Below, one piece after another: positions 1 to 58,265 of a stretch of DNA of 64,000 nucleotides; within the stretch, counting starts at the first letter, position 1, and every line of letters starts with the position of its first letter. The notes beneath the pieces were generated by a model. The model had not been told where the DNA came from. It did no database searches and saw only the letters and a list, made by a program, of their open reading frames with translations. This DNA is from Parietichytrium sp. I65-24A (lineage: Eukaryota; Sar; Bigyra; Thraustochytrida; Thraustochytriidae), in NCBI GenBank assembly GCA_012862575.1, contig BLSF01000011.1:62001-126000 (forward strand), written 5' to 3'. The translations under genes were made by a program, and so were the position numbers.

Positions 1-1392
1 ACACATCATCACACGCGTGAATATATGTCACTCGATTACAGAGAACTACTACTGGAGGGACGGAGGATGCGCTGTGTAAAAACAAAGGTGGTTCACTGAA
101 CTTGAACGCGGTGATCTTCCGGTAGTACAGTCAATTGGAATAAAAAAGAGCCCCCCTGCCCCCCCCACGTTTTCTTGAATCAAGGAGCTGAGAGCGCTAC
201 TTTCATATAGATTGCGTTCCTCATTTCGATCGACACTCTTGATTTATAATATCCCATGAACGGGGAGAGATGTCTGTCGTGAAATTCCAGAACTCAGAAG
301 GGCTATGTACAAAATGACAAAGCACTAAGCTATTACTAATAGAGCTCAAACGTCATCCTAATGGCGCTTTTGTTATGCTAGCTACTAGTTGGTATGATAT
401 GCACGTGGGTTGAGCAAAGCGCGTGTCCTAAGATACCTTAGGCTTGGTTGGAATGAGTTGTAAAGTCACGAGAAGTGTCAGGATTGTCAGGATCTTGAGG
501 TTGTTCAATTCACAGTCAATCAATCAAAATAAATGTTCAATGGTTGATTGAGATCATTGATTAATTAAGATTGAACTGAAACAAGTTTCACGAGTTACTT
601 TGGCCAACGTTGACTGTGAAGAATTTGATTGCCCGTAAATGAAGAGTACTGGTACCCCGGTATGGAGAGCTTTGAAGATTGGCAAAGTGTAAAAATGTGC
701 AAAAAGGGTTGCAGTGACTGCAGTGATTGACTGCAGAAGTTTTTACTAGCTAGCCCGTACTTCGAGACAAGTCGACGCATCGGACGCCGCATGAACCACG
801 AAAGTGCATGATGTCCCTCTAGCTAGCTAGAGATTCCTGGCAGTGAATTTCTTTTTTGGCATTGGCATCATTGGCGTTTGCATTGGCATTTGCATTCGTG
901 AATTTACTTTAACCCCAGTTCCTCTGCTCGGCGCCTCTGCTCGTCATGTGTACTTACTATCTGCGCACTGCTTCCGTGGCTTCCATAGCTTCCATAGCTA
1001 CCATAGCCTGAGCTTCCATCTTTAAAAAACCGATCGCTGCGGTCGGCAAGTCACTCGTAACGCCTGCAACGAGTTTGCGCAAGCTTCTTCTCCTTTCTCT
1101 GTCTCTGACCACCCCTGACCTCAGATGGCCACTGCATCGTTTGGATTCTTGATGATTCTTGGATCTGCGTCTGCGAATACGGAGTTCCAAGAGAACTAGG
1201 TTCACCGGTGAGATTTGAGCGAGATAGTTTTGGCTGTAAAGAACCCATCCCGCAAGCGAGCGGGAAGGCGAAAGGCTGCAAGGCAGATGGTCGCTCAGGG
1301 GCGCAGCAGATCGTTGGCGCGGTGAGAGCGATCGGTCCCCGCCTTTTTGTTCTTTTGTTCTTTTGTACCAAAGAGCTCGGTGGTGTTTGGCG
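1..1392. other. Non-coding region upstream of TERT
   Basis: No convincing gene is seen in this stretch. It holds CTAG- and GTAC-rich palindromic words (about 645-665 and 820-835), a GCATT/TTGGC-rich patch near 860-900, and a triplicated 9-mer at 979-1005. The last few hundred bases are probably the promoter and 5' leader of the telomerase gene. Short open frames here have no recognisable protein character. Confidence 0.6.
979..1005. repeat. 9-bp word repeated three times in TERT leader
   Basis: GCTTCCATA occurs three times in a row, the third copy with one mismatch, about 390 bases upstream of the telomerase ATG. It belongs to the class of triplicated 8-10-mers seen in many leaders of this window. 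Confidence 0.8.
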
Positions 1393-4134
1393 ATGGCGGA
1401 TCTTGTCCTGCAGCACTTATTTGGCACGGGAGCGAACGCAAAGCCGCTCGGCAGCGTGGTGCGGAGCATTACGGGCACGTACTTCTCGGCGCCGGCAGAG
1501 CTGAAAGATGTGTTGGTCTTCGACCCTAGCACAGAGCACAAGGTCGTGTACAGCAGACAGGGCGACGCTCCGGTCGAGCTTGCTGATGTCGTAGACCGAT
1601 GCATCGCTCTTGCAGTCGCGGACAGACAGGACAGCAAATACAGACGGAAAAATGTTCTCTCATTGGGCTTTGTCAAAAGCAGAGGTGGCGATTGTGATTT
1701 GACCGTCTCCCAGCGATGCGCGAGCAGTTCCGTGGGTTACCTCAAGAGCCCATTTTGGGCACCCGTGCTCCGCGCTCTCGGAGAGGACGCGTTCGCTGAT
1801 CTGCTGCTCAACCATATCGTGATGGTGAGAGCAGGGCTGTCGTTTGTGCAACTCACGGGACCAATCCTCGCTGGCGAGTTTCGGAGAGCTGGCACGGATA
1901 TGCTGCAGACTGGAAGGAAGTCCAGTGCGGTGCAGTATCTAAGAAATGGCCGACCGGATCGCGTTGACAGAGCGAAAATGTTTTACTCGTCCCACTTCAA
2001 CAGAAGATTCTGTCTTCCAAAAACATCTCTTTTGGCGAGCAAGACCGTTGGTGGTGCCTATCTCTGGCGCAAAATATTCAAATCTGCTAATCGTAGAGTT
2101 GGGAATTCAGAGCAACGCCGGCAGCGGCTCTGGTGCAGTGATCTACTTGCCCGCCATCGCAAATGCCCTTACGGCTCTCTGCTTCGAAGGCATTGCCCAA
2201 GCAGCCTTCCACCAGATAGCATTCGAGACACCCTCGGTCTTGCAAGCTCAGTGACAAGTGTCGCCGAATTCCTCAAGTCTGTGTGTCAGCACATCTTTCC
2301 GCGTAACACTTTTGCGGCAGTGGGAAGAAAGGGTCGACGGGCTTTTCTGAAGATACTTGATGACTTCATCCGGCTTCCGAGGCGGGACACATTTCTTGTT
2401 AGTTTTGTGGCGGAAAAAACCGGTCTGGACATTGCGAGGACAGATGTCCTCTTCAACGAGCTCATTGTACCGCTCTTACGCTCCGCCTTTTACTGCACGG
2501 AAGGGTCGGGAAGCGGACAGCAAGTCTACTACTTTCGAAAGCCAGTGTGGAGCGCCATATGCGAACTTGAGCTTAAAACCCTTTGTGACGGTGCGTCTGG
2601 GCGAGTGCCCCCGATCCTTACCAAGTCGCAGCCAAGGTCCAAAGCACCACTTCCGCGAACAGGTAATTTTAGCCGCCTTCGCCTGGTCCCCAAGGCAAGC
2701 TCAGGCCTGCGGCCGATCATGAATTGTAAGGCGCTCAACTTCAAACTAACGTTTGTCCATCAAGTGTTGAGGTCTTCCTTCCGCAAACTGCCTCAGCAGC
2801 ACCCTTTCAATCCGCAAATATTGGGTTTGAACGAATTTTACAAGCACTACAAGGCATACGTCAAGCATTGCAAAGAGAGTGTGCAGCCAGCCGGGACGGG
2901 CTACCAAATGCTCACCGTGGATGTTGTACGCTGTTTCGACAACATACCTCACGACAAGCTTGAAGATGCGGTTGGCGACTTGTTGGTTGACGCCGACTTT
3001 CGCATCCGAGGTTTCAATTCGATTTTTGTCAACCGCGCGATTCGGCGCTTGCGCAGCGTCACATCTCGAATCGTTCAGCACGGGACAGGGGCGGCTTCTG
3101 CAGAGTGTTCCGCTTTCAATCGTGCAAGCGCAAGCAGGCGGCCCGCAATCATTGTTGACAAAGCCGAGTCCTTCAGCATGTCTAGTTCCGAAGCGTTGCG
3201 CAAAGTTCGTATGCACGTCCGCTCACACTTTACGAACTTTGCAGGGAAGACTATGTTTCGACAAACACGAGGTATCCCGCAAGGCTCCATCCTCAGCAGT
3301 CTACTATGCGCCATTTACTTTCAGCACTTTGAACAGCAAAAGCTGAGCTCAATCTTGTTTGATCCAGAGCTCAGTCGACCTCTCCTCTCGCGCCATTTAG
3401 AAGGCCCTAACCCTGACTCGCCTCCAAACGCTGCACATACGTTTTGCGTCAGATTGCTTGATGATTATCTCGTCATTTCCACGCACCCGAGGCCACTTGC
3501 TAGCTTTCAATCGAGAATGGAGAAAGGTTTCCCAGAATTTGGCATTCAGGTAAATCCCGCGAAAACAAAGATTTCCTCTATGGAGAAACCATTCATATCC
3601 TGGTGCGGGTATACGTTCAACACAAAGGATTTGTCCGTGACTTTTGATGTCGAGAGACTTGAAAAGCTGTCCAGCGGGGCCCAAGCAGTGGCCGCAGGGC
3701 GCGGCCCGGCGATTTGGGAAAGCGAGGCGCACCAGTTGCGCCAAGCCTTTCAACTCATAGCGCTGCGATGTGATCCCGTTCTTTTTGATAAGACGATAAA
3801 CCCATTGCACGTTGCCAAGGTAAATCTACGTACAGTTTTCCGTATGGCAATGGCGAAACTTACCCCGGAAGCTCAAAGCCGCCACTTTGCTCGGATCGCT
3901 CGATTTGCCAACAACACAATTCAAAGCCGGTGCAGCGGCGAAACGGACCTAACTTTGAAGATTGCACTCAATATACAGCAAAAGCTCCTAAACCCCGTTT
4001 CCAAGCGAAAAGCCAAAGTCGGCCACAAGAGCTGCAAGAGACAGAAGGTATCTCGTTCGCAGGCTAAAGCTCGTGACGAGGCGCAATCCCAACAGGATAC
4101 AGGTCTCGCAAGTAAACAAGTAACATTCAAGTAA
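1393..4134 (+). CDS. TERT: Telomerase reverse transcriptase
   Basis: Catalytic subunit of telomerase, which copies the RNA template onto chromosome ends in the nucleus. The 913-residue protein has all the expected parts in order. The N-terminal TEN domain (about 1-160) includes NVLSLGF and a segment ending in QLTGP. The RNA-binding domain has a CP motif RHRKCPYG near 254 and a T motif ending YYFRKPVW near 367-395. The reverse transcriptase domain has motif 1/2 (LRLVPK...GLRPI), motif A with Asp510, motif B' (TRGIPQGSIL), motif C LLDDY with Asp690 and Asp691, and the primer-grip WCGYTFN near 737. All three catalytic Asp are present. The start is the first ATG before the TEN domain. It is one exon and shorter than human TERT (1132). 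The neighbour SEN34 is convergent, 82 bases away. Confidence 0.96.
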   Translation: MADLVLQHLFGTGANAKPLGSVVRSITGTYFSAPAELKDVLVFDPSTEHKVVYSRQGDAPVELADVVDRCIALAVADRQDSKYRRKNVLSLGFVKSRGGDCDLTVSQRCASSSVGYLKSPFWAPVLRALGEDAFADLLLNHIVMVRAGLSFVQLTGPILAGEFRRAGTDMLQTGRKSSAVQYLRNGRPDRVDRAKMFYSSHFNRRFCLPKTSLLASKTVGGAYLWRKIFKSANRRVGNSEQRRQRLWCSDLLARHRKCPYGSLLRRHCPSSLPPDSIRDTLGLASSVTSVAEFLKSVCQHIFPRNTFAAVGRKGRRAFLKILDDFIRLPRRDTFLVSFVAEKTGLDIARTDVLFNELIVPLLRSAFYCTEGSGSGQQVYYFRKPVWSAICELELKTLCDGASGRVPPILTKSQPRSKAPLPRTGNFSRLRLVPKASSGLRPIMNCKALNFKLTFVHQVLRSSFRKLPQQHPFNPQILGLNEFYKHYKAYVKHCKESVQPAGTGYQMLTVDVVRCFDNIPHDKLEDAVGDLLVDADFRIRGFNSIFVNRAIRRLRSVTSRIVQHGTGAASAECSAFNRASASRRPAIIVDKAESFSMSSSEALRKVRMHVRSHFTNFAGKTMFRQTRGIPQGSILSSLLCAIYFQHFEQQKLSSILFDPELSRPLLSRHLEGPNPDSPPNAAHTFCVRLLDDYLVISTHPRPLASFQSRMEKGFPEFGIQVNPAKTKISSMEKPFISWCGYTFNTKDLSVTFDVERLEKLSSGAQAVAAGRGPAIWESEAHQLRQAFQLIALRCDPVLFDKTINPLHVAKVNLRTVFRMAMAKLTPEAQSRHFARIARFANNTIQSRCSGETDLTLKIALNIQQKLLNPVSKRKAKVGHKSCKRQKVSRSQAKARDEAQSQQDTGLASKQVTFK

Positions 4135-22374: not shown

Positions 22375-24165
22375 ATGGCGAACCTCGGGCCAACGGTGGA
22401 GGAGCGCATCAAGGCGTTCCTGGGTCGCGGCACTTGTGCTGAGAGCAGCCCAGCAAAAGCTACATCAACCGCAGACGCGAATGGCGTAAGCCCTGACCTG
22501 CCCGAGAAACCGAGGAGCGGGGCCGAACCTGCTCTCGGGACTGTTGGCGGGGTCCGCAAGGACGAAAACCTTGGCGACGCCGACTCCGTGGAACTGTTAG
22601 AAGGCTATTTAGGTTCTCCAGACTGCGTGGAGCTTGCGTGCTCTGTGCGCGACGGTGGCGTAGAGGAGCTCAGACAAGCAAAATTCTCAGCTTCGTCGCA
22701 AGAGAATGTGAAGCTGCGTGGCGACCGCCTGGCGTGGATCACCGCTGCATGGGACAAGGAACACACAATGTTCTCCAAGCTGTTCGCGAAGCTCAAAGTG
22801 GAGCTGGCGAAAAGATCTCAGGAGTTCCGTCTTAGCGGCAAGGTAAGTGTGCAATTGGCATGCTACCCTGCAACGGACGGCGAATCTGGTGGATACGTGC
22901 GGCATGCTGATGTGTTGCAACTCGATGTCCCAGACCGCAGGGTATTGACGGCGATTTATTATTTGAACCCAGGCTGGGACGTGAGTCGATGTGGAGGCCA
23001 ATTGCGCATCTTTCATGGGAAGGGGCACGTGGATATCGCGCCTGAGGCTGACCGTCTCGTTATCTTTCCAAGTGAGCTGGAACACCAAGTGATGCCCTCG
23101 CAGCGCAGGCCTCGCTGGGCTATCACAACTTGGTTCTATGGGCAAGGTAAGCCTGTTCCGCGCCTCGTTCAGGGCCCCAGGCGTGTCGTAAACGATGCGA
23201 ACCTAGGGCGCATCTTCGTAGCGATTCCCAGCTATAGAGATCCACAGTGCCAGCACACAATTAGAAACATCTTTGAGCAAGCGGATAACCCTGAGAGCAT
23301 CCGCATTGGCGTCTGCTGGCAAGGGAACTTAGACGACCCTAGCGAGGCGACGTGTTTTAGTTATCTCGACTCAGATTTTGAACACCACGACAAGCTGCGT
23401 TTGATTTATTTTCCTTCGGCAAAAGCAAAGGGCCCCACAGTAGCGAGACGCCATGCACAAAGTTTGTGGCAGGGTGAGGAGTTTCTGCTGAATATTGATT
23501 CTCACACCAGATTTAGGAAAGGCTGGGATGTCTTCTTGAAGCAATGCCTTGGCGAGATGCAGCGATCCACAGGAAACGCGAAGGTTGTTTTGACCAGCTA
23601 CCCTTCGGGATATGAGCTAGCTGGTGGCAACGAGGCTGGGCTGGGAGAACAGGTAGTTCTTCCCAATCAATTCGCTGCAGACATGTGCGGCGCGCCAATC
23701 CTAGCCCCTGACCATTTTGAGGAGACGGACGGTATTTTGAGACTTGTTGCTCGAAGAAGCCCTGAATTCAAAGGCGTGGCATCCCCAAGTCCGTTTTGGG
23801 CCGCCGGTTTCAACTTTTGTGTGGCTGCTGACGTTCTGCAGCTGGTGCCTTATTCCTCTGTTAACGACTTGTTTTTCGGCGAAGAGACTTTGATGAGTGT
23901 TCGTTTGTGGACTCACGGGTTTGACTTTTACGCGCCAAGCAAGGAGGTGTTGTACCATTTGTGGTCTCGGTCATATCGACCTGTTCACGTCAGCAGCACT
24001 GCCGCCCGATCAGAAGCAGCCAAAAAGGTTTCCAGCTTTTTAGAGACTGGAGTCTCAGATAGCAAAGATGCAGCTTTCTTTCTTGGACCCGAGCGGTCTC
24101 TCAGTGACTTTGAGGCCATGGCAGGTGTTAGCTTTAAGGAAAGATCTGTGCAAAAATGGAGTTAA
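22375..24165 (+). CDS. Fusion of Skp1-type prolyl 4-hydroxylase and polypeptide GlcNAc-transferase (PhyA-Gnt1)
   Basis: A 596-residue protein with two enzymes in one chain. Residues about 95-255 form a 2-oxoglutarate/Fe(II) prolyl hydroxylase: iron ligands His177 and Asp179 (VRHAD) and His237 (LEHQV), and an Arg about ten residues on (Arg245 or Arg247) for 2-oxoglutarate. Residues about 279-590 form a GlcNAc-transferase of the Dictyostelium Skp1 type (GT60 family), starting IFVAIPSYRD, with a DSH metal motif (375-377) and the block PFWAAGFNF. In Dictyostelium and Toxoplasma separate PhyA and Gnt1 act in sequence: PhyA hydroxylates a proline on the SCF ubiquitin-ligase subunit Skp1 in an oxygen-dependent way, then Gnt1 adds GlcNAc. 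Here product channeling is plausible. No signal peptide is present, fitting a cytosolic pathway. Intronless, start ATG in good context. Confidence 0.88.
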   Translation: MANLGPTVEERIKAFLGRGTCAESSPAKATSTADANGVSPDLPEKPRSGAEPALGTVGGVRKDENLGDADSVELLEGYLGSPDCVELACSVRDGGVEELRQAKFSASSQENVKLRGDRLAWITAAWDKEHTMFSKLFAKLKVELAKRSQEFRLSGKVSVQLACYPATDGESGGYVRHADVLQLDVPDRRVLTAIYYLNPGWDVSRCGGQLRIFHGKGHVDIAPEADRLVIFPSELEHQVMPSQRRPRWAITTWFYGQGKPVPRLVQGPRRVVNDANLGRIFVAIPSYRDPQCQHTIRNIFEQADNPESIRIGVCWQGNLDDPSEATCFSYLDSDFEHHDKLRLIYFPSAKAKGPTVARRHAQSLWQGEEFLLNIDSHTRFRKGWDVFLKQCLGEMQRSTGNAKVVLTSYPSGYELAGGNEAGLGEQVVLPNQFAADMCGAPILAPDHFEETDGILRLVARRSPEFKGVASPSPFWAAGFNFCVAADVLQLVPYSSVNDLFFGEETLMSVRLWTHGFDFYAPSKEVLYHLWSRSYRPVHVSSTAARSEAAKKVSSFLETGVSDSKDAAFFLGPERSLSDFEAMAGVSFKERSVQKWS

Positions 24166-27332: not shown

Positions 27333-28621
27333 TTCAACAATATTAGCCTCTTCACCCGGCGTCCCCGGTGTAAGCCCGTTTCTGGGCTTCGCCGGCGAAG
27401 AACTGCGGTTTAAATGGTCCAAGCATGTCCAAGCTTTCAGAGCATCAAACGAAAAATTGCTAACTTGTGAACACAAACTTTCAAATGAGTACTCGAGTAC
27501 CAGGTACTGAGTACTGGTACAATGGTCTTGTCCTCTCTGAGCGATGTGGTGCCAAGTAGAAGTTGATTGATGAAACGCATGTTTGAATTTGTTTGTGTTT
27601 GAATCCAGTATTACTACGTTTACTCACGGAGCGGAAGTGTCAGTTCCAGCAGTTCCAGCAGTTCCAGCGAAAGCAACGTGAATGACCGTGAGCAGCGGTT
27701 CTGCCCCTGCCATACTGGGGTGCGGAAACTGTGGAGAGACGTGCAAGTACGAACGTCGTAAATTTGTGCCACAATGTGTCACAGTGCAAATGTCAACAGT
27801 GTCACTTGACACATAGTCATGTGGGACAGCTCTCACGCATAAGTCAATGTTGTAGGACATGTAGGACATACAGAATGTTGTTGTAACCAGCTACGGCCTT
27901 CGCTAAGGTCACGGTATTACTAATAGAGGATTTGTCTAATCCGTAACAAGTCTATCATAAGTTATAAGATTCTACGGAGCAGAGAGTCGGAGAGTGCTCG
28001 CATAAGATACCTGCTAAGTTATGCCTATTTTTCCAGGCGAAACAGGCGACGCTCACTAAGGTTCCAACTCAGGCGTAGTGAATGATACTGAAGGCTATAG
28101 TACTCAGTACCTATGGGTAATTCCTGCCAGGGTGATCAAAAGCCGAGAACCAAAACCCACTTTGTTATGGACTACTAATGGCTTCCAGCGCCAAATGAAC
28201 CAGCTAGGCACTTCCACATGGTTGCTATGAATTTCTTGGGTGCGAAACGCGTACTATTCTACTACTCATGCTAGTTGGGGGGCCGGGCGCCGGGCCAAAG
28301 CTGCGCACGCAACAAGTTTGCGTAGGGAATCCTATATGGGTCGTACCCAGTGCGAAACTTTGTATCAGCCACCTGCGCTTCCTGTGATCATGCAGCAGAT
28401 ACTATATGAATAGCTAGTGCGGTATTGGAGTATTTCAGATCGGAGCGAAGTACCGGGGAGTAGTAGCTGAGTATACACGCGTACTCACTGGTACCAGTAC
28501 TCGCTGTCAGCAGCAGTGAGTACAGTACGACAGCTGCATCTGCTGGAAACGAGCAGTGCCGCAGAGCGCACAAGGCAGACGGCTCAGACAAACTGCGAGA
28601 AGTGCTTGCAGCGCGAACACA
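27333..28621. other. Divergent promoter region, PX protein and BI-1 genes
   Basis: No gene supported. Contains GTAC palindromes at 27494-27519 (GTACCAG and CTGGTAC arms), a triplicated 9-mer at 27642-27668, a TACTCAGTACC near 28097 and an ACTGGTACCAGT palindrome near 28490. Confidence 0.6.
27642..27668. repeat. Triplicated 9-mer upstream of the PX protein gene
   Basis: AGTTCCAGC is repeated exactly three times, about 310 bases upstream of the PX protein ATG on the other strand. Confidence 0.8.
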
Positions 28622-29629
28622 ATGTTTGGGTTTGGGGGCTCTTCGAGCCAAGGAGGGAGCGGGAGCAACCAATACGGACAAAGCAACCTTTACGGTCAGC
28701 AGGGTCAGCAGGCGCAGAACACGTACGTACAACAGCCAATCCAAGCACAACCAGGGTTCCAAATTGTTCAACCCCAGAATGCCGGGCAAGTAAACTACGG
28801 GCAGAGCTATGGCCAGCAACTCTACGGACAAACCTCGCAAGGGTATGGGCAGTCTTCGCAAACTCAGCAGCCGCAGCAGCACGTGGTGATGGTTGTCGAT
28901 GCTCAGCCGCAAACGCAGTCCAACTTCCAAATTTCTGGAGGTGAAAAGCATGATCTCATTGCAGACATGGAAATTGGAGTGCGACACGCATTCTTGCGCA
29001 AGGTATTGGGGATCGTGACCGTGCAGCTCTTCGTCACCTTTGGAGCTGTCTTTGCATTCGCGTTTAGCGACCCATTCATCAAATTTGCACAACAGAACCG
29101 ATGGATCTATTACGCCTCCATTGCCGTCTATTTCATGGCTGTGATCACCATTTCTTGTTGCACTGACTTCGTGCGCAAATCCCCCAACGGCCTGATAGTT
29201 CTTGCATTGATGACTGTGGCAATGAGTTTCATGCTTGGTGTCGTGGCAGCCTATTCGGACCCCACCACCATAGTTTTTGCAGTATGTGGAACTGCTGTGA
29301 TTGTAGGGGCACTGACGCTGTTCAGTCTGCAGGTCAAATACGACTTTACCAAGTTCGGCCCTTATCTTCTCGTTCCGTTGGTTTGCCTCATGATCTTTGG
29401 CGTTGCGCTGATCTTTATTAAAGAGACTCCGGTAGTCAGACTTGTCTATGGAGTCCTTGGTATGTTGTTGTTCTCTATGTACCTCGTCGTGGATCTTCAG
29501 ATGGTGGTTGGGGGGAGCCACAAAAAGTACGAGTTTGAGGTCGATGACTACATTTTTGCGGCCGCAAATATTTACATCGACATTATTCAAATATTTTTGA
29601 ACTTGCTTATCGTGTTGGAGAACACCTAA
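28622..29629 (+). CDS. BI-1/TMBIM (Lifeguard-type) membrane protein
   Basis: A 335-residue member of the Bax-inhibitor-1 family, calcium-leak or stress-control proteins of ER and Golgi membranes. The N-terminal 95 residues are Gln/Gly/Tyr-rich and probably disordered, as in Lifeguard/GRINA proteins. From residue 120 seven hydrophobic segments follow, with family blocks VRHAFLRKVLGIVTVQL, YDFTKFGPYL and MYLVVDLQMVVGG. The latter carries Asp in the sensor region. The C-terminus ends LNLLIVLENT. The start is the ATG at MFGFGG. Function is inferred from the family. Confidence 0.92.
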   Translation: MFGFGGSSSQGGSGSNQYGQSNLYGQQGQQAQNTYVQQPIQAQPGFQIVQPQNAGQVNYGQSYGQQLYGQTSQGYGQSSQTQQPQQHVVMVVDAQPQTQSNFQISGGEKHDLIADMEIGVRHAFLRKVLGIVTVQLFVTFGAVFAFAFSDPFIKFAQQNRWIYYASIAVYFMAVITISCCTDFVRKSPNGLIVLALMTVAMSFMLGVVAAYSDPTTIVFAVCGTAVIVGALTLFSLQVKYDFTKFGPYLLVPLVCLMIFGVALIFIKETPVVRLVYGVLGMLLFSMYLVVDLQMVVGGSHKKYEFEVDDYIFAAANIYIDIIQIFLNLLIVLENT

Positions 29630-31590: not shown

Positions 31591-32634
31591 CGAGCGTTCT
31601 GCGCCGCCTGGTCTGCAGACCAAACAGCGCCAAAACCTCGCGCCCGAAAGTGGGTGCAGCCAAGGAATCGAAAACACCTCTCCCTTGCGCCCGACTCCAA
31701 AGAGGTATTGGAGAAGCAGGTGAGCTGGCTTCATCAGGAGCACAAGAATCTTAGCAAAGCTGAAGAAGCGCAGGAGTTCGAACGGAAATTCATGAACATC
31801 ATTCATTTCAATGGAAGCGCGGACGCCGATGGGATGGTCAGCAAAGCCCAACTTCAAAAGGTGTTCGAGTCCATTGGCGTGTTCTTCGATCCTGAGCTCT
31901 TCGACAAAGTGTTTCAGCTCTTCGATGCCGACGGAGACGATAAGGTCAATCAAACAGAGTTCTCCGTGACAATGTGTTTTCTGATGTACCGCGGATCTGC
32001 ACACGACAAAACCGAGCTATGCTATCGACTCTTCGACACTAACCGAGACGGTGGCATCAGCCGCCGAGAGTTTAACGACATGATCGCCTCCATTTTAGGC
32101 AACAAACTTGAAAACGTGCTTCTTGTGGATCGTGGCCGCGAAGCATTTTCATCCTATCTCAAGTCCGAATACGCGGACGAGCTCTTGCGTTTTGTCGAAC
32201 AAGTGAGGTTTCTGGAAAGGGAAACCAGCGAAAGCCGTGTTCTTACACCCAAGGAAGCAACACAGATATTTGATACATACATTGAAGTGGACTCAGCGGA
32301 TCAAATAAACGTGTCCGACAAAGTTCGCGAGCGCTGTCGCACTGAGCTCCTCCAGCTTGTTGACGGAGGCGCAGACTCGATCCCTATTTCAATTTTTGAT
32401 GACGCTGCCGAAGAGGCTGTTGCTCTCATCGAGGCAGGACCACTTCCCCGTTTCAAGCAGAAAATTCGCAGCACATTCTCTTACTTTGCAGACCCGGCTT
32501 GGGACGAGTTTGAGCTCAGCGCTGATGACGGCCTTCCTCTGGAGCTCTTCCGAGCTTGGTCAGAGAAAACCCCAGGGCTCTTCAACTTCTTTGACGCTCT
32601 TCAGGACGTTCTGAAGCTCACCGCTCGTTCTTAA
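31591..32634 (+). CDS. EF-hand plus RGS-domain protein, 5' end unresolved
   Basis: Calcium-binding and G-protein regulator-like protein. Two canonical EF-hand loops are visible: DADGDDKVNQTE and DTNRDGGISRRE, with a degenerate one before them. After about 40 residues comes an RGS-like domain: LENVLLVDRGREAFSSYL, then FVEQVRFLERE, IFDTYIEVDSADQINVS, and FDDAAEEAVALIEAGPLPRF. RGS domains speed GTP hydrolysis by G-alpha; joining to EF-hands suggests calcium-gated control, which is inference. The frame is open from 31591 with no ATG before 31792, yet coding character clearly precedes 31792. An ATG at 31587 directly after the leader repeat is in another frame. So either a short upstream exon exists or one base is missing around 31660-31690. 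Confidence 0.8.
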   Translation, partial: RAFCAAWSADQTAPKPRARKWVQPRNRKHLSLAPDSKEVLEKQVSWLHQEHKNLSKAEEAQEFERKFMNIIHFNGSADADGMVSKAQLQKVFESIGVFFDPELFDKVFQLFDADGDDKVNQTEFSVTMCFLMYRGSAHDKTELCYRLFDTNRDGGISRREFNDMIASILGNKLENVLLVDRGREAFSSYLKSEYADELLRFVEQVRFLERETSESRVLTPKEATQIFDTYIEVDSADQINVSDKVRERCRTELLQLVDGGADSIPISIFDDAAEEAVALIEAGPLPRFKQKIRSTFSYFADPAWDEFELSADDGLPLELFRAWSEKTPGLFNFFDALQDVLKLTARS

Positions 32635-42681: not shown

Positions 42682-45600
42682 CTAGCAGACGTTGGTGACA
42701 AGGTCATCTTTGTAAGTTGCTACATCCGCAAAGATTGTCCTCCATGAGCCGCTCTGCCTTCCGGAAAAGAGAGCACTGTCTGCGCGCGAAGAGGTCCGGA
42801 AATAGTAGACATTGGCGCCAGTTGATGACATCAGCTCCTTTGCGGCCTGTCGCGCACAGGTTACTGCACTTTTACGATTGTAACCATAGGCTCTGCAACG
42901 ACTAGCGGATTTCGCGAGCGCATCAATTATTGCGATGACAACCCTTTCAGTGTTGGGACGGTTGGTTTCGTCGGGGGGAGCTGCCTCAAACATTTGCCGA
43001 ACCTGAATAAGAGCTTGTCCAAGCGCCAATTTCGTGTTTTTGGAATCAGAAGGGACGTAGTCGTCCAAGGTCCCCTTGAAGCCATTGTAGCTGATAGCAG
43101 CGGCATCATCTAGATTGATCCGATGAGTTACATCTAAAGCTTCGGCGGCGGCGAGGAAGCCAAGACGGGTTTCATAAGGCCCGAGCTCAAAAGCGTCGAC
43201 TACATCGCGAATAAGCTGCTTGGCGTTCGACCAGTCGGAGTTCGATGCATAAGTGCTTGAATCCAACAGGAAGATCACGTCCAAGTGCATCTTGGAGCAG
43301 CTTACGACCGGCGGGCTTGTTGCTACTTCTGGGAAATTGTCGCTGGGCCTCTGAAGCGTCGGTTGCTTTGTAGGCGAAGAGGTTGGCGATGGGCAAATGC
43401 TCGCCTTGATAGCTTCGCTAGCAGAATCAACTTCCTCCCAATTCTCGATTGAATAGCTGGCCACCTCTTTCCCGCGAAAGACATTTGTGGCGCCGTGCAC
43501 GATGCTGTACACGTCAGCGCCGTACGAATTTTGGAGCGTTGCGAACGCCTGATACGCGCAGGTGCTTGCAGACTTCTTGTTGTATTTGTACTTTGAGCAA
43601 TACTTCGTTCCTTTAACGTTTTTCTCCTGCAGAACCACGACTACACGGCTTGCTCCTGCTCGGGGGCCTTCAAGCGGGTGGTCATCAAACATCCTTCGGG
43701 CCCAAATGAGCCCCATGCCCATTGCCGAGCCTGTGCTTTTCGATGGGGTCCAGCTGTTTACCTTGCTCTTGAACGTTGTCAAGTCGGTCCCAGCAGCGTC
43801 TGTGAACTGCAGGTTGAGCTCGATTTTCGAAGAGTAGCCAATCAATCCGAGGCGAATATTATTCGGGCCCACTTGCAAGTCCTCGACAATGTCCAGGATG
43901 GCTTGCTTCATGGATGCCCACATAAGTTTTCGGTTGGAAGAGGTGTCCACAACGAAGAGCAAGTCCAGGATCTCGGTATCTCCGCACACCGCCATGGTAG
44001 GGGCTGCAGTTTTCACGAGGACTGGGGGAACTGTTGGTGTCGGAGACACCGTCGGAGTTGTGCTTGGAGCTGCAGATGGTGCTGTGGTAGGAGCCGTGCT
44101 TGGAGCTGTAGTTGATCCACTGTCATCGTCGGGGCGCGGCAGTAAAACATTGTCCGACTCGCTCGGCGACACTGTTGGAGAGTCTGTCGGGCTGAGAGAT
44201 GGCGCAGCGGTGGGAGACACTGTTGGATCCAAGGTTGGGCTCTCAGTCGGAGAGACTGTCGGGCTAAGAGATGGCGCAACCGTGGGAGACACTGTTGGAT
44301 CCAAGGTTGGGCTCTCAGTTGGGGAGTCTGTTGGGCTAAGAGATGGCGCAGCGGTGGGAGACACCGTTGGATCCAAGGTTGGGCTCTCAGTCGGAGAGAC
44401 TGTTGGGCTAAGAGATGGCGCAGCGGTGGGAGACACCGTTGGATCCAAGGTTGGGCTCTTAGTCGGAGACACTGTCGGGCTAAGAGATGGCGCAACCGAG
44501 GGAGACACTGTTGGATTCAAGGTTGGGCTCTCGGTCGGAGAGTTTGTTGGGCTGAGAGATGGCGCAGCGGTGGGAGACGTTGTCGGATCCAAGGTCGGGG
44601 ATTCTGTTGGGCTGAGAGATGGCGCAGCCGTGGGAGACGCCGTCGGATCCAAGGTCGGGGAGTCTGTTGGACTCTTTGTTGGCGAGTCCGTAGGCTCTAG
44701 GGTCGGCGAGTCCGTCGGAGCCAGTGTGGGAGATACGGATGGCGTATCCGTTGGACTCGCGGTTGGATCCCTGGTTGGTTGATTGGTTGGCTCGACGGTT
44801 GGAGTTTTCGTTGGCGAAGAAGATGGAGACTGAGATGGAGCGCTTGTTGGATAGATCCTCTCTAGCGCGTCTGAAGTCACCGTCTTGTATCCTGCGTCGA
44901 TTCCTGTGAGAAGATTCCGTCCCCGCTTCACAATATAGTTGCCTGTAAGCCCGCTTGCTGCCACGTCACTGTCACTACTATCTGATTTGTAGTTGGCCTT
45001 GGTAAAAGCAAAACCCGATGGGAGTTCAAATTTGACCCTGAAATATTGGTTGGCGGGCACGGGATCCAGCAAAGCTACTCCATCACTGCCAGAGTACGCT
45101 TCCACGGTCTGGTTGGTTACCGGGTCCACCAATGGTTCGGTTCCATCTTTGCTGTAGAGTTGAACTAAAATACCCTCCACATTGAGGTCTGCCTCCGAAT
45201 TGTCTTGGCGACCATTTTTATTCGCATCATACCACACTCGGCTCTGCAAAGTTCCCGTACTCCACACTCCTGCATCGATTCCCTCCCAGGCTTGCGATCC
45301 ACGAGTCGCGCGCATGGACTTCGTCATTCCGTTCGATGGATAAGGGTCGCTTCCTGTCTCTGATGTGCCTTTGCCGCGAACTGTGAGGGAATACCATGGG
45401 TAATTATCAAGACCGAATTTCACGACGAAAGCTTGATTTGCTGGAACCCAAGGTAGTAGAGCCCGGCCGTCTGCATCTGAGACAGCAGTAACAGGGAGCT
45501 GTGTTTCGGGGTGAACGATCGGCGTAGAGGAGGTGTCCAAGAGAGAGACGATCACTCCGGAGACGTTTGCAAGCTCTTCATCATCGTCTTGAATTCCGTT

Positions 45601-48600
45601 CCCGTCCAAGTCATCCCAAACCCGCGCTAGTAAAGTTCCCGCTCTCCAAATGCCGGCGTCAATGTTTTCAAACTCTTGCTTACCCATGGTAGCCATGTAG
45701 GCCTTGGTATATCCTGCGTACATGTTCACATCACTGTCCACGGTGTCGTCGCTGCCGACACCAGAAGGGCAGAAGCGCGATCCAGGAACGTCGCTCAAAT
45801 TGTAATAGACACGGAAATAACGGTCCGCGGGTACCCAATCGAAGCGAGCAATTCCGTCAGCATCGGAGGTCGCTTGTACAGGCAGAGATGTCTCTGGGTC
45901 TGTGATCGGATCCGAGGACGAGTCTAACAAGTACACCACCACACCTTCAACTTTGGATTGCACTTCATCATCATTCCTGAGACCGTCACCGTCAAGATCG
46001 TCAAACACTCTAGAGACAAGTGTTCCCGGGGAGCGCAGCCCCAAGTCGATATTCTCGAAAACCTGATTTGCGCGACTTGCCAGGAAATACTGGTAGGTAA
46101 TTCCATCCTTTCGCGAATCGCTGTCGAGAGTGTCATCGGACCCTTGGTCTCTGCTGGTTGCTGCGGCTCCCGGAAGGGAAGACAAGTCGAACTTGACACG
46201 AAATCGTGTCGTGGTAGGCACAAAGTCGAAGGTTGCGTAGCCGCTGCTGTTTGACAAGGATGTCAGTGGCTCTAAAGTATGAGGATGGTAAAGCTGCGTG
46301 CCATCGAGGTCCACGAGCGATACGTTAATGGAAGGCACCTCTTCCTCATCTTGATCATCCTGGATGCCGTCCCCATTCAGGTCTTCCCAGATTCGCGACA
46401 CTAAAGTTCCAGCTGTCCAGACCCCCACGTCGATATTTTCATGTAGTTGTGCGCTCATGGAGGCGAGATACCCCTTGGTCACACCAGTGGCTTGGCTCGG
46501 GTCGCTGTCAATAGTGTCGTTCTTGGCCTTCTTTTGCAGAGAGATTGCTGCGCCAGGGACAGACGAGAGGTTAAAGTGCACTTTAAAGTAGCGGTCGGCA
46601 GGTACCCAGCCGACCACCGCCACGCCATCCTCGTCAGTCACGGCAGAGACCACCTCCCCTGAGTCGGGGTGTACCACTTGCGTAAGGTCACTTTCAAGGA
46701 GGGTCACCACAACGCCAGCCACCGGTGCGGCCGGCTCTTCGGGCATGGCCCCAGTGCCATCGTTGTCAACCCAAGCCGTGGCGCGCAGTGTCCCGGGAAG
46801 CAGAACGCCTGCAGCGATCTTGGTGTTGACTTGGGACCCGGCAGTGGCCTTGTACGTGGAATAGGTGATTCCGGTAGAAGCGCTTACGTCGCTGTCCAGC
46901 GTATCCCCGGCTCGGTTCGCTCTGGAGAAGGTGCTTCCCGGAATGGAATTGTGGACCTTGACTCTGTAGCTGCGGTCGGCCGGGACCCAGGAGAGGGTGG
47001 CTTTGCCATCTGCGTCAGTGTAGGCTTGGACATTTTCTTGAGTGTCAGGGTGGACGATGGGCTGCTCATCCTCTTCTAGCAACTGCACGAGCACATTTTC
47101 GAGGTTTTCGTCATCCTCGCTTTCGTCCTGGATCCCGTCGCCGTCAAGGTCGCTCCAAACGCGCACCACTGCCGACCCAGGAGCCCATACACCGGCTGAG
47201 ATGTTTACCAGAGCTTGCTCTGCACTCTTCAACTTGTATGACTGGTCAGTCAAACCTGTGTTCCTGTTCACGTCCGAGTCGGTGTTGTCGCTGCCAGAAT
47301 TCGCTCTCACGGAGAATCGGAAGCCCGGTCTTGCGGTATTGAACAAGAATCTAACTGCGCGATCTGCAGGAATGTATGGAAAGTCTGCCAACCCAGACTC
47401 ATCCGTGGTAACTTGAATGGGGTCTGTCGATCCTTGTGTGGTAAAAGGGGTGACTCCATCTTCCTCCATCAGAGTGACCTGGAAGCCGCTCAGATCAACT
47501 TCAGAGCTTGTAAGCGGGTCTCGGCCGTTCCCAGTGACGTCATTGAAAACCTTCACCTGGGCAGTGCCCGGCGAAATTAGCCCCGCATAGATTGTGTTGA
47601 TATGCTGCTCGCTCTTCTTGATCTCGTAAACTCCGGTAAGCCCGGTGGCTTGGTCTACATCATTGTCAGCCAAGTCGCTTCCGTAATTTGCTCGATCAAG
47701 AAAGCGATAATTCTCGAAGCCATCAAGGCTGAAGTGGACGCGAAAAGGCTTACCGGCTGGAACCCAGTCAAAGTACGCCGTTCCGTTTGATCCGGTCACC
47801 CTCGTGAGAGGTTCACTAGTTGCAGGGTCCAGTAGTGGAGTCTCTCCGTCCTCTTCCACCAGCTGCGCGAGCACTCCGGCTTTGAGATCGCTCTCCTCAG
47901 CGAGTTCGTCCGGGCTTGCTACCGAGTTTGAATGTCTCTCTAGAAAAGCCGTCACGGTGACAGACCCTGGCAGGAGAATTCCCACTGAAACGCCTACGCT
48001 ATCATCAGTGAGAGTGAAGCTTTCGGTGGTGATTCCGGTCGAAGGGTCAACATCTGAGTCGTAGTTTTTATTTGACCCAGCGTTCGCGTTTGTGAAGGTC
48101 GCTCCTGGTATCTCGGAAATGTCGAATTTGAGCTTAAATGGGAACGCACCTGGAACCTGCACTGATGCGACTTCTTCTGGATCGATGGTGATCTGGGAAT
48201 AGTCTTCCAAGCCGTTTCCGGAGGCGTCCAGGACGGTGACGTAGACCTTCCCTATCAGGCCGGGCTCACCTCCGTTTCGAATTCCGTTCCCGTTCCGGTC
48301 TGAAAACACTCGAACTTGGGCGGTTCCCACGATGGAGGTCGGGCGTGGAGTGGTGGCACGTGTTGGCGACGTTGTTGGGCCGAAGGTTTCTGGGGAAGGT
48401 GTAGGGCTGTCGGTGGTTATATCTTCATTCGACTCAACTTCGCACGGAGGTACAAAGACAAAAGTCAGAGAGTTCCCAGTCTGCGAGTCCCACACCCATT
48501 CTGCCTCCTCGTCCAATTGGCCTTGCGCAAGCGTGCCGTCTTGAGGGGTAGCAACCAAAGGGGCAGTAAACGACGACGCGATTGTGTCGATATAGAACGC

Positions 48601-48945
48601 GCCCTCGGTGGGTGTTGTCGAGATGGTGCCGTCAGTGGCGTAAGTCTGTCCGCACAAATCCAGCGAACCGATGAAACCACCAGTCTGCGAATTCGCCGCG
48701 CTGACTGTGAAAGTTAGCGCAGCGCCTGGGACGAGGTTCGTCTGCGTTCTCTGTAGAGGAACGTTTGGGTTGCCCTTGCTCGCTGGATTGCCGTCTGCCT
48801 GACCATCCACCATGTACTGATACGTTATTCCCGCATTGCCATGAACGGAGAAAGAGACTTTGTCGCACTCGCACGTAGAAGCCTCTGCTGCATTGCTCAC
48901 TGAAATGATCGCGGATGTGACGAATCCAATCCAATGGAGTCTCAT
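42682..48945 (-). CDS. Giant secreted protein: SdrD-like repeats, Ser-Pro-Thr region and two vWA domains
   Basis: A 2087-residue secreted protein, probably of the cell surface or wall. Residues 1-22 (MRLHWIGFVTSAIISVSNAA) form a signal peptide. About 23-190 is a Cys-containing domain. Nine SdrD B-like (Cna-B type) beta repeats fill about 208-1355; each opens like GTLVSRVFDDLDGDG, an Asp-rich calcium-type loop, and ends with a FxxV-A/GxW block. About 1365-1645 is a Ser-Pro-Thr stalk from a DNA tandem repeat. Two von Willebrand A domains follow at about 1652-1850 and 1878-2087. Their metal sites (DTSSN and DSSTY) are weak compared with DxSxS. No membrane anchor is seen. Adhesion or matrix binding is inference from domain types. 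The first ATG in frame gives the signal peptide. Confidence 0.85.
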   Translation of the reverse strand: MRLHWIGFVTSAIISVSNAAEASTCECDKVSFSVHGNAGITYQYMVDGQADGNPASKGNPNVPLQRTQTNLVPGAALTFTVSAANSQTGGFIGSLDLCGQTYATDGTISTTPTEGAFYIDTIASSFTAPLVATPQDGTLAQGQLDEEAEWVWDSQTGNSLTFVFVPPCEVESNEDITTDSPTPSPETFGPTTSPTRATTPRPTSIVGTAQVRVFSDRNGNGIRNGGEPGLIGKVYVTVLDASGNGLEDYSQITIDPEEVASVQVPGAFPFKLKFDISEIPGATFTNANAGSNKNYDSDVDPSTGITTESFTLTDDSVGVSVGILLPGSVTVTAFLERHSNSVASPDELAEESDLKAGVLAQLVEEDGETPLLDPATSEPLTRVTGSNGTAYFDWVPAGKPFRVHFSLDGFENYRFLDRANYGSDLADNDVDQATGLTGVYEIKKSEQHINTIYAGLISPGTAQVKVFNDVTGNGRDPLTSSEVDLSGFQVTLMEEDGVTPFTTQGSTDPIQVTTDESGLADFPYIPADRAVRFLFNTARPGFRFSVRANSGSDNTDSDVNRNTGLTDQSYKLKSAEQALVNISAGVWAPGSAVVRVWSDLDGDGIQDESEDDENLENVLVQLLEEDEQPIVHPDTQENVQAYTDADGKATLSWVPADRSYRVKVHNSIPGSTFSRANRAGDTLDSDVSASTGITYSTYKATAGSQVNTKIAAGVLLPGTLRATAWVDNDGTGAMPEEPAAPVAGVVVTLLESDLTQVVHPDSGEVVSAVTDEDGVAVVGWVPADRYFKVHFNLSSVPGAAISLQKKAKNDTIDSDPSQATGVTKGYLASMSAQLHENIDVGVWTAGTLVSRIWEDLNGDGIQDDQDEEEVPSINVSLVDLDGTQLYHPHTLEPLTSLSNSSGYATFDFVPTTTRFRVKFDLSSLPGAAATSRDQGSDDTLDSDSRKDGITYQYFLASRANQVFENIDLGLRSPGTLVSRVFDDLDGDGLRNDDEVQSKVEGVVVYLLDSSSDPITDPETSLPVQATSDADGIARFDWVPADRYFRVYYNLSDVPGSRFCPSGVGSDDTVDSDVNMYAGYTKAYMATMGKQEFENIDAGIWRAGTLLARVWDDLDGNGIQDDDEELANVSGVIVSLLDTSSTPIVHPETQLPVTAVSDADGRALLPWVPANQAFVVKFGLDNYPWYSLTVRGKGTSETGSDPYPSNGMTKSMRATRGSQAWEGIDAGVWSTGTLQSRVWYDANKNGRQDNSEADLNVEGILVQLYSKDGTEPLVDPVTNQTVEAYSGSDGVALLDPVPANQYFRVKFELPSGFAFTKANYKSDSSDSDVAASGLTGNYIVKRGRNLLTGIDAGYKTVTSDALERIYPTSAPSQSPSSSPTKTPTVEPTNQPTRDPTASPTDTPSVSPTLAPTDSPTLEPTDSPTKSPTDSPTLDPTASPTAAPSLSPTESPTLDPTTSPTAAPSLSPTNSPTESPTLNPTVSPSVAPSLSPTVSPTKSPTLDPTVSPTAAPSLSPTVSPTESPTLDPTVSPTAAPSLSPTDSPTESPTLDPTVSPTVAPSLSPTVSPTESPTLDPTVSPTAAPSLSPTDSPTVSPSESDNVLLPRPDDDSGSTTAPSTAPTTAPSAAPSTTPTVSPTPTVPPVLVKTAAPTMAVCGDTEILDLLFVVDTSSNRKLMWASMKQAILDIVEDLQVGPNNIRLGLIGYSSKIELNLQFTDAAGTDLTTFKSKVNSWTPSKSTGSAMGMGLIWARRMFDDHPLEGPRAGASRVVVVLQEKNVKGTKYCSKYKYNKKSASTCAYQAFATLQNSYGADVYSIVHGATNVFRGKEVASYSIENWEEVDSASEAIKASICPSPTSSPTKQPTLQRPSDNFPEVATSPPVVSCSKMHLDVIFLLDSSTYASNSDWSNAKQLIRDVVDAFELGPYETRLGFLAAAEALDVTHRINLDDAAAISYNGFKGTLDDYVPSDSKNTKLALGQALIQVRQMFEAAPPDETNRPNTERVVIAIIDALAKSASRCRAYGYNRKSAVTCARQAAKELMSSTGANVYYFRTSSRADSALFSGRQSGSWRTIFADVATYKDDLVTNVC
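44190..44665 (-). repeat. Tandem 72-bp/60-bp repeat encoding the SPT stalk
   Basis: Seven units ending in the codons for APSL: five of 24 residues (72 bp) and two of 20 residues (60 bp). Neighbouring copies are nearly identical and differ in single bases, which points to recent unequal exchange. Each unit carries SPT and DPT steps. Confidence 0.9.
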
Positions 48946-48993
48946 CCTTGCCTTGAAATCTTGGTGGTGCTCGATGTACCGAGTTGTGGTTTC

Positions 48994-49020
48994 GGTTTTG
49001 GTTTTGGTTTTGGATTTTGG
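48994..49020. repeat. GGTTTT hexamer array in the giant-gene leader
   Basis: Three exact GGTTTT units plus variants lie 50-75 bases upstream of the ATG at 48945. Confidence 0.8.
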
Positions 49021-50714
49021 CGGGAGCTCGGAAAGGCCGTGGACATCGCCTTTCCGCAAGATGCACCCCAATAAGTGCGGATTGAAACTCACCACCGAAG
49101 GTGATCCGTGGTTTGTCAATCAAACCCAGTGTTGAAGGAGTTTCCAGGTGTATTTTTTGGCGTTAGGTTTGAGTGGCCAACAATGGTGTTATTATTGGCC
49201 TTAGCCGATTTCAAGCTGGTCTGTATTCAACGTCTCCTTTTTGAGATATTCTCGTCGCCATCCAGGCAATTGTTTACAAGAACATACTCACATTAGCGCG
49301 TCCCTGGTTTTTGGTGATATGCAAGCTTGTGTGACCAGCTGTGTCTCTGAAAGTTGCATGGGTGTGTCGATTACGTCTTCTCGAGGAAGGAATAATTTGA
49401 GGCGGTTTGAGTTTTGTTTTGCCGACTTGTATGGTTGTGAGAACGGGCCTTGATGTACCGCATCTCAGCCGAAGGAAACGTCTTAGTGATGTGAACCTTC
49501 CCATCACTGAGTTGATGGCAGCGGTCGCTCGCATATACTGTTTCTTGCATTCCAAGCTTGCAGCACGGCACAAGCATTTTGCTTGCGACCTGGGCAATTG
49601 ACTGAAAGAACTTGTAGGGAACTTTCATCCTGGTGCACTTGTTCTTTCGCCCTACTTGAAGTTAAAGCAGTGTGAAAGAACGAGTCGAGAAATATATCCG
49701 TTCCCTTCGCCAACACTTTGAGTAGGGTTCGTTAGCGGTGTTCTAGTTCGAGGGAGCTCTTTGCCTTTCGAAGATCAAGCGGGTGGAGGTTCCATCCGCT
49801 GCCTCTCCCGCAACACTCGATTGACCACCCGGGAATGCTGATTGCTTGACGGATCCAGCTCTTGCCTAAAACCACAAGGTTTTCAGCAACGTTGAGGTTT
49901 AAGCGGTACAATACCTGCTCCCTTCCAGATGTCGAAGGAATCCCCCGAATTTGCTTTCTCTTCCACCATCAGGTTATCTGTGAAACCTGAGATGTCGCAG
50001 ACAGCACTGCCCGTCTCCTCTTTTCCATTTCCAGGATGTTGGTGCTCGCGAAATGCTAGCTAGTAAGATGGCGGTCTTTATATCATGGCTTTCCTTTGTC
50101 CTCTTGGATATTTCAAGCCGATAAGCGCCCAATTCGCTCTCCCAACGGCTACCGATGTCGATCATCATCAGAGCACGTGCGCCAGCAGACAGACGGGACT
50201 TCTGGTTGTCCCCCGTGCAAAAAGCTCATTCGCAGCCAAATCACCTCTCTGAATTCCTGAACTAGGTAGCTAGAAACCGTGGTACTCAGTACTGTATCGT
50301 GTGGAGATGTTGATGTGAACCTGTACACATCTGTACACTGTACGGCGGTGGAGTGTGTTGGACTTTAAGGGAGCAAGCGAAATGGCCGGCCGTTACTTTG
50401 TTCATCTTTCAAATTTTGCGATAAATATTGTGACGAAGAAAGACACAGACACTTGGGAGTATTTCGTACAGAGACATGTTCCATGCCTGAGTCGGATCTC
50501 CAGTCGTTGAGTCGATGGGGCGAGTAACTGGTGAATTTCCGAAACTAGGAAAAGCGCATCTTCTGTAACTCTTCTGTAAAAAGAAAAAAAATTACAACAC
50601 AGATCTCACAGATCACGTTTTTACGTTTTTGGTCGTGCCAGCCACGAAGTGCAGCATAGAAGTGAAAACTTGCTTAAAAAAATTAATCTATAGAGAAACG
50701 GATCTACGAGCCCT

Positions 50715-57980: not shown

Positions 57981-58265
57981 GTTTTGAGTTTGAATGACAC
58001 GCGCTCCATACAAGCAAATGGATCCATGATTTTCTACGCTGAAAAATTTGTCAATTGTTATATTTATATTATTTCATGTCATGAATATGGGCACGTTCAA
58101 GTGTGTCCATTTTCTTTTTTTTTTTTTTCGATACAGCACAAAATCTTTTGCCAAGGAGCCTCGGAGCGAAGGAGGCGTTGCTGCGCGCTCTGCCTCGATT
58201 CGAGTGTGTACAACGGAGCTTCTGCCATATTTTTTTCTCCAAGTCACGGACGGCCTGACTACTCT

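Follow-up and report, generated by a model that had tools for sequence, protein, structure and literature searches.

A thraustochytrid reading frame that joins a PHD-type prolyl hydroxylase to a GT60 GlcNAc-transferase, a probable PhyA-Gnt1 enzyme

The DNA analysed here (the window) is a stretch of 64,000 nucleotides from contig BLSF01000011.1 of Parietichytrium sp. I65-24A. On its forward strand lies a frame of 596 residues that is translated without an internal stop, and Pfam finds both a prolyl hydroxylase and a GlcNAc-transferase domain in this one chain, which bears out the original prediction that the two share a single frame. The features of the gene are collected in Table 1, together with the bacterial loci discussed below. 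Coding potential was assessed by codon usage, with 16 other open reading frames (ORFs) from the window as the training set, two or more of which have weak Pfam support; the whole ORF scores 0.106 per codon against -0.288 and -0.379 in the other two frames. The score is lowest at the linker (-0.07 to -0.12), yet it is still the highest of the three frames there. Only in the last 180-base segment, which begins at residue 561 and extends beyond the stop codon, is a rival frame slightly ahead (-0.05 against -0.12). Hydropathy reaches a maximum of 0.06 in the 19-residue windows starting in the first 60 residues, and the maximum over the whole fusion protein, a 19-residue mean of 1.31, falls within the transferase domain. 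By hydropathy alone, neither a signal anchor nor a hydrophobic N-terminal segment is seen, and the protein thus fits a cytosolic enzyme.

Table 1. Positions of the fusion gene and its parts in the window, and of the bacterial ORFs that combine GT60 and oxygenase domains (in locus coordinates)
Feature	Position	Strand	Evidence
Hydroxylase-GlcNAc-transferase fusion, single open frame, 596 aa	22375..24165	+	translation, Pfam
First 104 residues, lacking a Pfam match and a hydrophobic anchor	22375..22686	+	Pfam, hydropathy
PHD/PhyA-type prolyl hydroxylase domain, residues 105-257	22687..23145	+	PF13640, EGLN1 alignment
HxD iron ligands H177, D179	22903..22911	+	sequence
Third iron ligand (in H237-Q-V239) and R247, aligned with the presumed 2OG-binding arginine	23083..23115	+	EGLN1 alignment
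Linker, residues 258-277, from end of hydroxylase match to start of transferase	23146..23205	+	starts of annotated GT60 genes
GT60/PF11397 GlcNAc-transferase domain, residues 278-596, predicted GT-A fold	23206..24162	+	PF11397, alignments, model
DSH metal motif, residues 375-377	23497..23505	+	53-relative alignment
Tandem GT60, then two 2OG-Fe(II) oxygenase domains	L011 2051-8149
Tandem GT60, then two 2OG-Fe(II) oxygenase domains	L012 1997-8023
Tandem GT60, then two 2OG-Fe(II) oxygenase domains	L013 929-8296
Tandem GT60, then 2OG-Fe(II) oxygenase domain; contig end cuts locus	L014 1967-7384
Tandem GT60, then two 2OG-Fe(II) oxygenase domains	L016 1-4878
Tandem GT60, then 2OG-Fe(II) oxygenase domain	L022 2162-7165
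Tandem GT60, then two 2OG-Fe(II) oxygenase domains	L025 2-3940

Elsewhere in the window, a 923-residue single-frame ORF (1363-4134, + strand) with telomerase RNA-binding and reverse transcriptase domains probably encodes TERT, and a 2145-residue ORF on the opposite strand (42682-49119, -) contains eight SdrD_B stretches, a VWA domain and PT repeats and predicts a large protein resembling adhesins, in what appears to be a eukaryote. One ORF (31654-32634, +) joins an RGS domain to EF hands, and at 28388-29629 a Bax1-I ORF (+) overlaps a 400-residue ORF of the opposite strand that lacks a Pfam match. The GC content is 0.67 in the 2-kb block 56001-58000, where most of a lipase-3 ORF lies, and ranges over 0.47-0.56 in the remaining blocks. 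Searches of the window for tRNA genes and Rfam families gave no match.

The N-terminal half of the protein is matched by 2OG-FeII_Oxy_3 (PF13640) at residues 160-255, far over the cut-off (E 1.1e-20, or 3.1e-21 for this half by itself). A phmmer search of PDB aligned residues 105-257 with human EGLN1/PHD2 (E 1.5e-18), and when the hydroxylase half alone was compared with PDB chains the scores were 72.7 bits for EGLN1, 53.6 for 4iw3, which we take to be the Pseudomonas EF-Tu hydroxylase, 43.5 for 6t8m (labelled Prolyl 4-hydroxylase subunit alpha, presumably Dictyostelium PhyA) and 37.5 for 6iuq (labelled Prolyl 4-hydroxylase). By bit score it is therefore nearer to EGLN/PHD than to the other solved prolyl 4-hydroxylases. 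Since 6t8m scores below both the animal PHD2 and the bacterial 4iw3, these values give no special pointer to a Skp1 hydroxylase. The animal enzymes, which match over the same stretch, have the same catalytic residues as the window hydroxylase; to our knowledge they have no glycosyltransferase attached. These residues are HAD (177-179), HQV (237-239) and R247, so that the iron ligands originally claimed, His177, Asp179 and His237, are all there in the sequence; R247 aligns with the arginine of EGLN1 that we assume to be the one binding 2-oxoglutarate. According to the available text of PMC6437050, active PHDs are typified by HxD, HxV and K/R, and all five of the critical residues described there are found in the hydroxylase half, whose active site looks intact as judged from its residues. 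The same text places EGLN1/PHD2 inside the clade of protist Skp1 hydroxylases and gives HIF-alpha as the protein on which the animal EGLN/PHD enzymes act. Prediction of the whole 596-residue protein from its single sequence (mean pLDDT 34.5) gave no usable model of the hydroxylase half or of the domain arrangement.

The second half had been assigned to the GlcNAc-transferases, and this identity is strongly upheld by PF11397 (GT60), which matches in two stretches with a whole-protein E of 3e-54 and 185.2 bits against a curated cut-off of 21; the better stretch covers residues 338-552 (profile positions 96-294 of 352), and the half by itself gives E 3.2e-55. Its identity to bacterial and phage GT60 proteins is 28-37%. 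For closer comparison, 53 relatives were chosen from the 160 loci of two scans (80 from bacterial genomes and 80 from viral_contigs). The predicted DSH metal motif is present as D375, S376 and H377; the aspartate and histidine are kept in all 53 aligned bacterial and viral relatives and the serine in 49. Furthermore, 38 of the 45 columns conserved in at least 90% of these relatives are retained, the D, S and H of the motif included, the differences being at 285, 355, 356, 373, 494, 495 and 541. Judged by the DSH motif, the transferase active site also looks intact.

A model of the transferase half, built from 54 sequences (the window protein and the 53 relatives), has a mean pLDDT of 85.4 and a pTM of 0.87. 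When it was compared with PDB by Foldseek, ranks 1-47 were all polypeptide GalNAc-transferases (best E 8.5e-11; TM about 0.5-0.6, rmsd 3.7-8.5, 12-18% identity), enzymes which glycosylate protein side chains, and among viral models the best matches were GlcNAc-type transferases of phages and giant viruses (best E 6.7e-26). The predicted fold is thus GT-A, like that of the polypeptide GalNAc-transferases. A sequence search of PDB for a solved GT60 structure gave no match with this half, and the profile gave one match at chance level (E 0.39). GT60 contains not only Gnt1 but also the polypeptide GlcNAc-transferases of the secretory (mucin-type) pathway, according to the available part of PMC8724618, a 2021 review, and the transferase half could in principle belong to the latter kind. 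This is extremely unlikely, as no signal-like or anchor stretch is present at the N-terminus and the fusion partner of the domain is a hydroxylase of the PHD type, which is known as a cytoplasmic kind (in the available text of PMC8724618 and PMC7864055).

The hydroxylase match stops at residue 257 and the transferase domain runs from 278. Among nine GT60 proteins of plasmids and phages, seven have an annotated start, and each of these starts falls no more than about nine residues from where residue 280 aligns; together with the end of the hydroxylase match, this leaves about 20 linking residues. The junction, first put near residue 265, was accordingly found at about 258-277. It might be argued that two genes or transcripts have here been read as one, the halves being parted by an intron or transcribed separately. 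A donor-like AAGGTAAGC lies at 23144-23152, at the start of the linker, where the coding signal also drops, and some other ORFs of the window hold only partial Pfam domains (tRNA_int_endo 5-33 of 85, for example), so that introns are possible in this genome. However, the two folds lie only some 60 bases apart, and an intron from the linker donor would therefore be shorter than 60 bases or would remove conserved transferase residues. The heptamer AGGTAAG occurs 4 times on the two strands of the window, where simple 4^-7 arithmetic predicts about 8; the fusion ORF has two of these copies, that at the linker and one within the conserved hydroxylase domain. Furthermore, near-complete domains are found in single frames of other window ORFs (Pfam coverage: B56 3-411 of 413, ELO 1-240 of 242, Ras 1-157 of 162, TauD 23-267 of 267 and RSN1_7TM 2-274 of 274), and the genome therefore looks intron-poor in this stretch. 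We consider a division of the halves very unlikely.

The fusion was then sought in viruses, phages and plasmids. Neither the whole protein nor the hydroxylase half gave a match in exact-peptide scans of viral_contigs, whose patterns reach close relatives only, and a scan with a two-sequence hydroxylase alignment, of the same reach, returned 27 stretches with no relative among them. The transferase alignment found at least 582 relatives in at least 600 stretches, of which 80 loci were kept; none of these 80 has an oxygenase in the transferase frame, as judged by phmmer with two hydroxylases and by small oxygenase profiles. Matches were present in 5 phage and 8 plasmid records, none spanning 80% of the fusion protein. 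Two matches, H4 and H5, bear the label Acinetobacter phage MD-2021a; the neighbours of H4 are ordinary bacterial genes (mdh, ribonuclease I), and it was therefore rejected as a phage hydroxylase and is read as a bacterial one. The record CAKLQH020000003.1 (L003), labelled Acinetobacter phage, with malate dehydrogenase and ribonuclease I close to the hydroxylase, looks like bacterial chromosome. The large phages XacN1 and RAS14 each have a GT60 gene (L001 2989-4362 and L002 3013-4449, respectively), which in XacN1 is followed by a gene annotated as a carbamoyl transferase. On plasmids, GT60 genes lie near type VI secretion genes in Burkholderia ambifaria (L006 3989-5341) and near a phage tail sheath gene in Azospirillum (L005 3995-5218). 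The bacterial and phage GT60 proteins share the D and H of the DSH motif with the window protein, and those that are annotated begin where its linker ends. The median length of 194 GT60 frames, measured from stop to stop, is 434 residues, so that a second large domain would be missing from most. Among the green and red algae studied in PMC3797821, GT60 is recorded, in the available text, in prasinophytes only.

The 80 bacterial genome loci were kept from 233 GT60 relatives, and in 7 of them several GT60 domains share an ORF with a 2OG oxygenase domain (Table 1). These ORFs are 1313-2456 residues long and their loci are metagenome-assembled by their titles, six being labelled Alphaproteobacteria or Rickettsiales and one (L022) Pseudomonadota. 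A second oxygenase domain is found in five of the seven (not L014 or L022), and an eighth locus, L015, has a weak oxygenase match (E 1.9e-5). The oxygenase profiles were built from four of the seven loci, which therefore match by construction; these four were first found by weak phmmer matches to the Acinetobacter hydroxylase (E 6e-7 to 6e-4). HxD...H...R is visible in the four bacterial oxygenases that were inspected. Pfam confirms the four loci behind the profiles, with PF13640 matching two stretches in each, and three of the four have an AhpC/TSA-like domain, in one case under the curated cut-off. The oxygenase region of L012 was matched in 16 of 131 genomes of its order, its own and others already seen included, in frames of 1668-2456 residues (7), 372-422 residues (8) and 88 residues (1).

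In the large bacterial ORFs the GT60 domains come first and the oxygenase after, whereas in the window gene the oxygenase comes first, and the window hydroxylase has no phmmer match at E 0.01 to the bacterial GT60-linked oxygenases; from the latter result the pairing appears independent. It may be, though we put this forward tentatively and with considerable doubt, that 2-oxoglutarate hydroxylases and GT60 have been paired at least twice, once as eukaryotic PHD-GT60 and once, reversed, in very large bacterial proteins. If true, hydroxylation-dependent cytosolic glycosylation would also occur in bacteria. A search of titles and abstracts, mostly outside the subscription literature, found no paper on a bacterial pairing of this kind.

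In Dictyostelium and Toxoplasma, PhyA and Gnt1 are separate proteins; the window protein combines the same two families, with presumably the same chemistry, in one chain. Orthology to the protist PhyA and Gnt1 is suggested by family profiles and pairwise scores rather than by a tree. Proteins of the fused kind are already in print: the available text of PMC6437050 (mBio 2019) states that PhyA genes are fused with Gnt1-like regions, which like the window gene have both enzyme families in one polypeptide, and van der Wel et al. (Glycobiology, 2019), in a title that several papers cite, name such an enzyme in a plant pathogen. The window gene therefore adds to a known protist kind, and may itself be among the genes in Table S2 of PMC6437050. 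Both family names of the original prediction stand, as does its idea of coupled hydroxylation and first-sugar addition, but the novelty that it left open does not.

Taken as a whole, it is very probable that the gene encodes a soluble, dual-function PhyA-Gnt1 enzyme that hydroxylates a proline and then adds the first alpha-GlcNAc, with Skp1 as the likeliest substrate. Made from a single transcript and active at both sites, as we infer, the protein would first use its N-terminal PHD-type domain, with O2, Fe(II) and 2-oxoglutarate, to form 4-hydroxyproline on a nucleocytoplasmic protein. The C-terminal GT60 domain, in which the DSH motif would hold the metal ion, would then transfer alpha-GlcNAc from UDP-GlcNAc to the hydroxyl of that hydroxyproline. 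Skp1 is favoured because the published PhyA/Gnt1 fusions belong to the Skp1 pathway, and were it the target, O2 would set the assembly of SCF ubiquitin ligases.

Alternatively, a fused cytosolic hydroxylase-GlcNAc-transferase could have a target different from Skp1, such as a translation factor. Hydroxylase relatives with other targets are described in the available text of PMC6437050, namely bacterial PHDs, which act on EF-Tu, and PHYb of Toxoplasma, which acts in translation elongation, and Pfam found no Skp1 among the 35 ORFs scanned of the 51 window ORFs of at least 150 residues, the fusion ORF included. However, the same text reads PhyA genes fused to Gnt1-like regions as encoding Skp1 enzymes, and the five catalytic residues are intact in the window protein, in contrast to the B3/B4 groups described there. 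A substrate other than Skp1 is thus unlikely, and the PhyA-Gnt1 reading with Skp1 as target is preferred.

On that reading, the gene is a further PhyA-Gnt1 fusion and lends support to the published picture in which Skp1 modification often has its first two steps united in one protein. The fusion gene alone raises no new question; with the steps so joined, O2-dependent hydroxylation would pass straight into glycosylation, and, being compact, with its two sites joined through a linker of about 20 residues, such a fusion would be a convenient enzyme in which to look for channelling from one site to the other.
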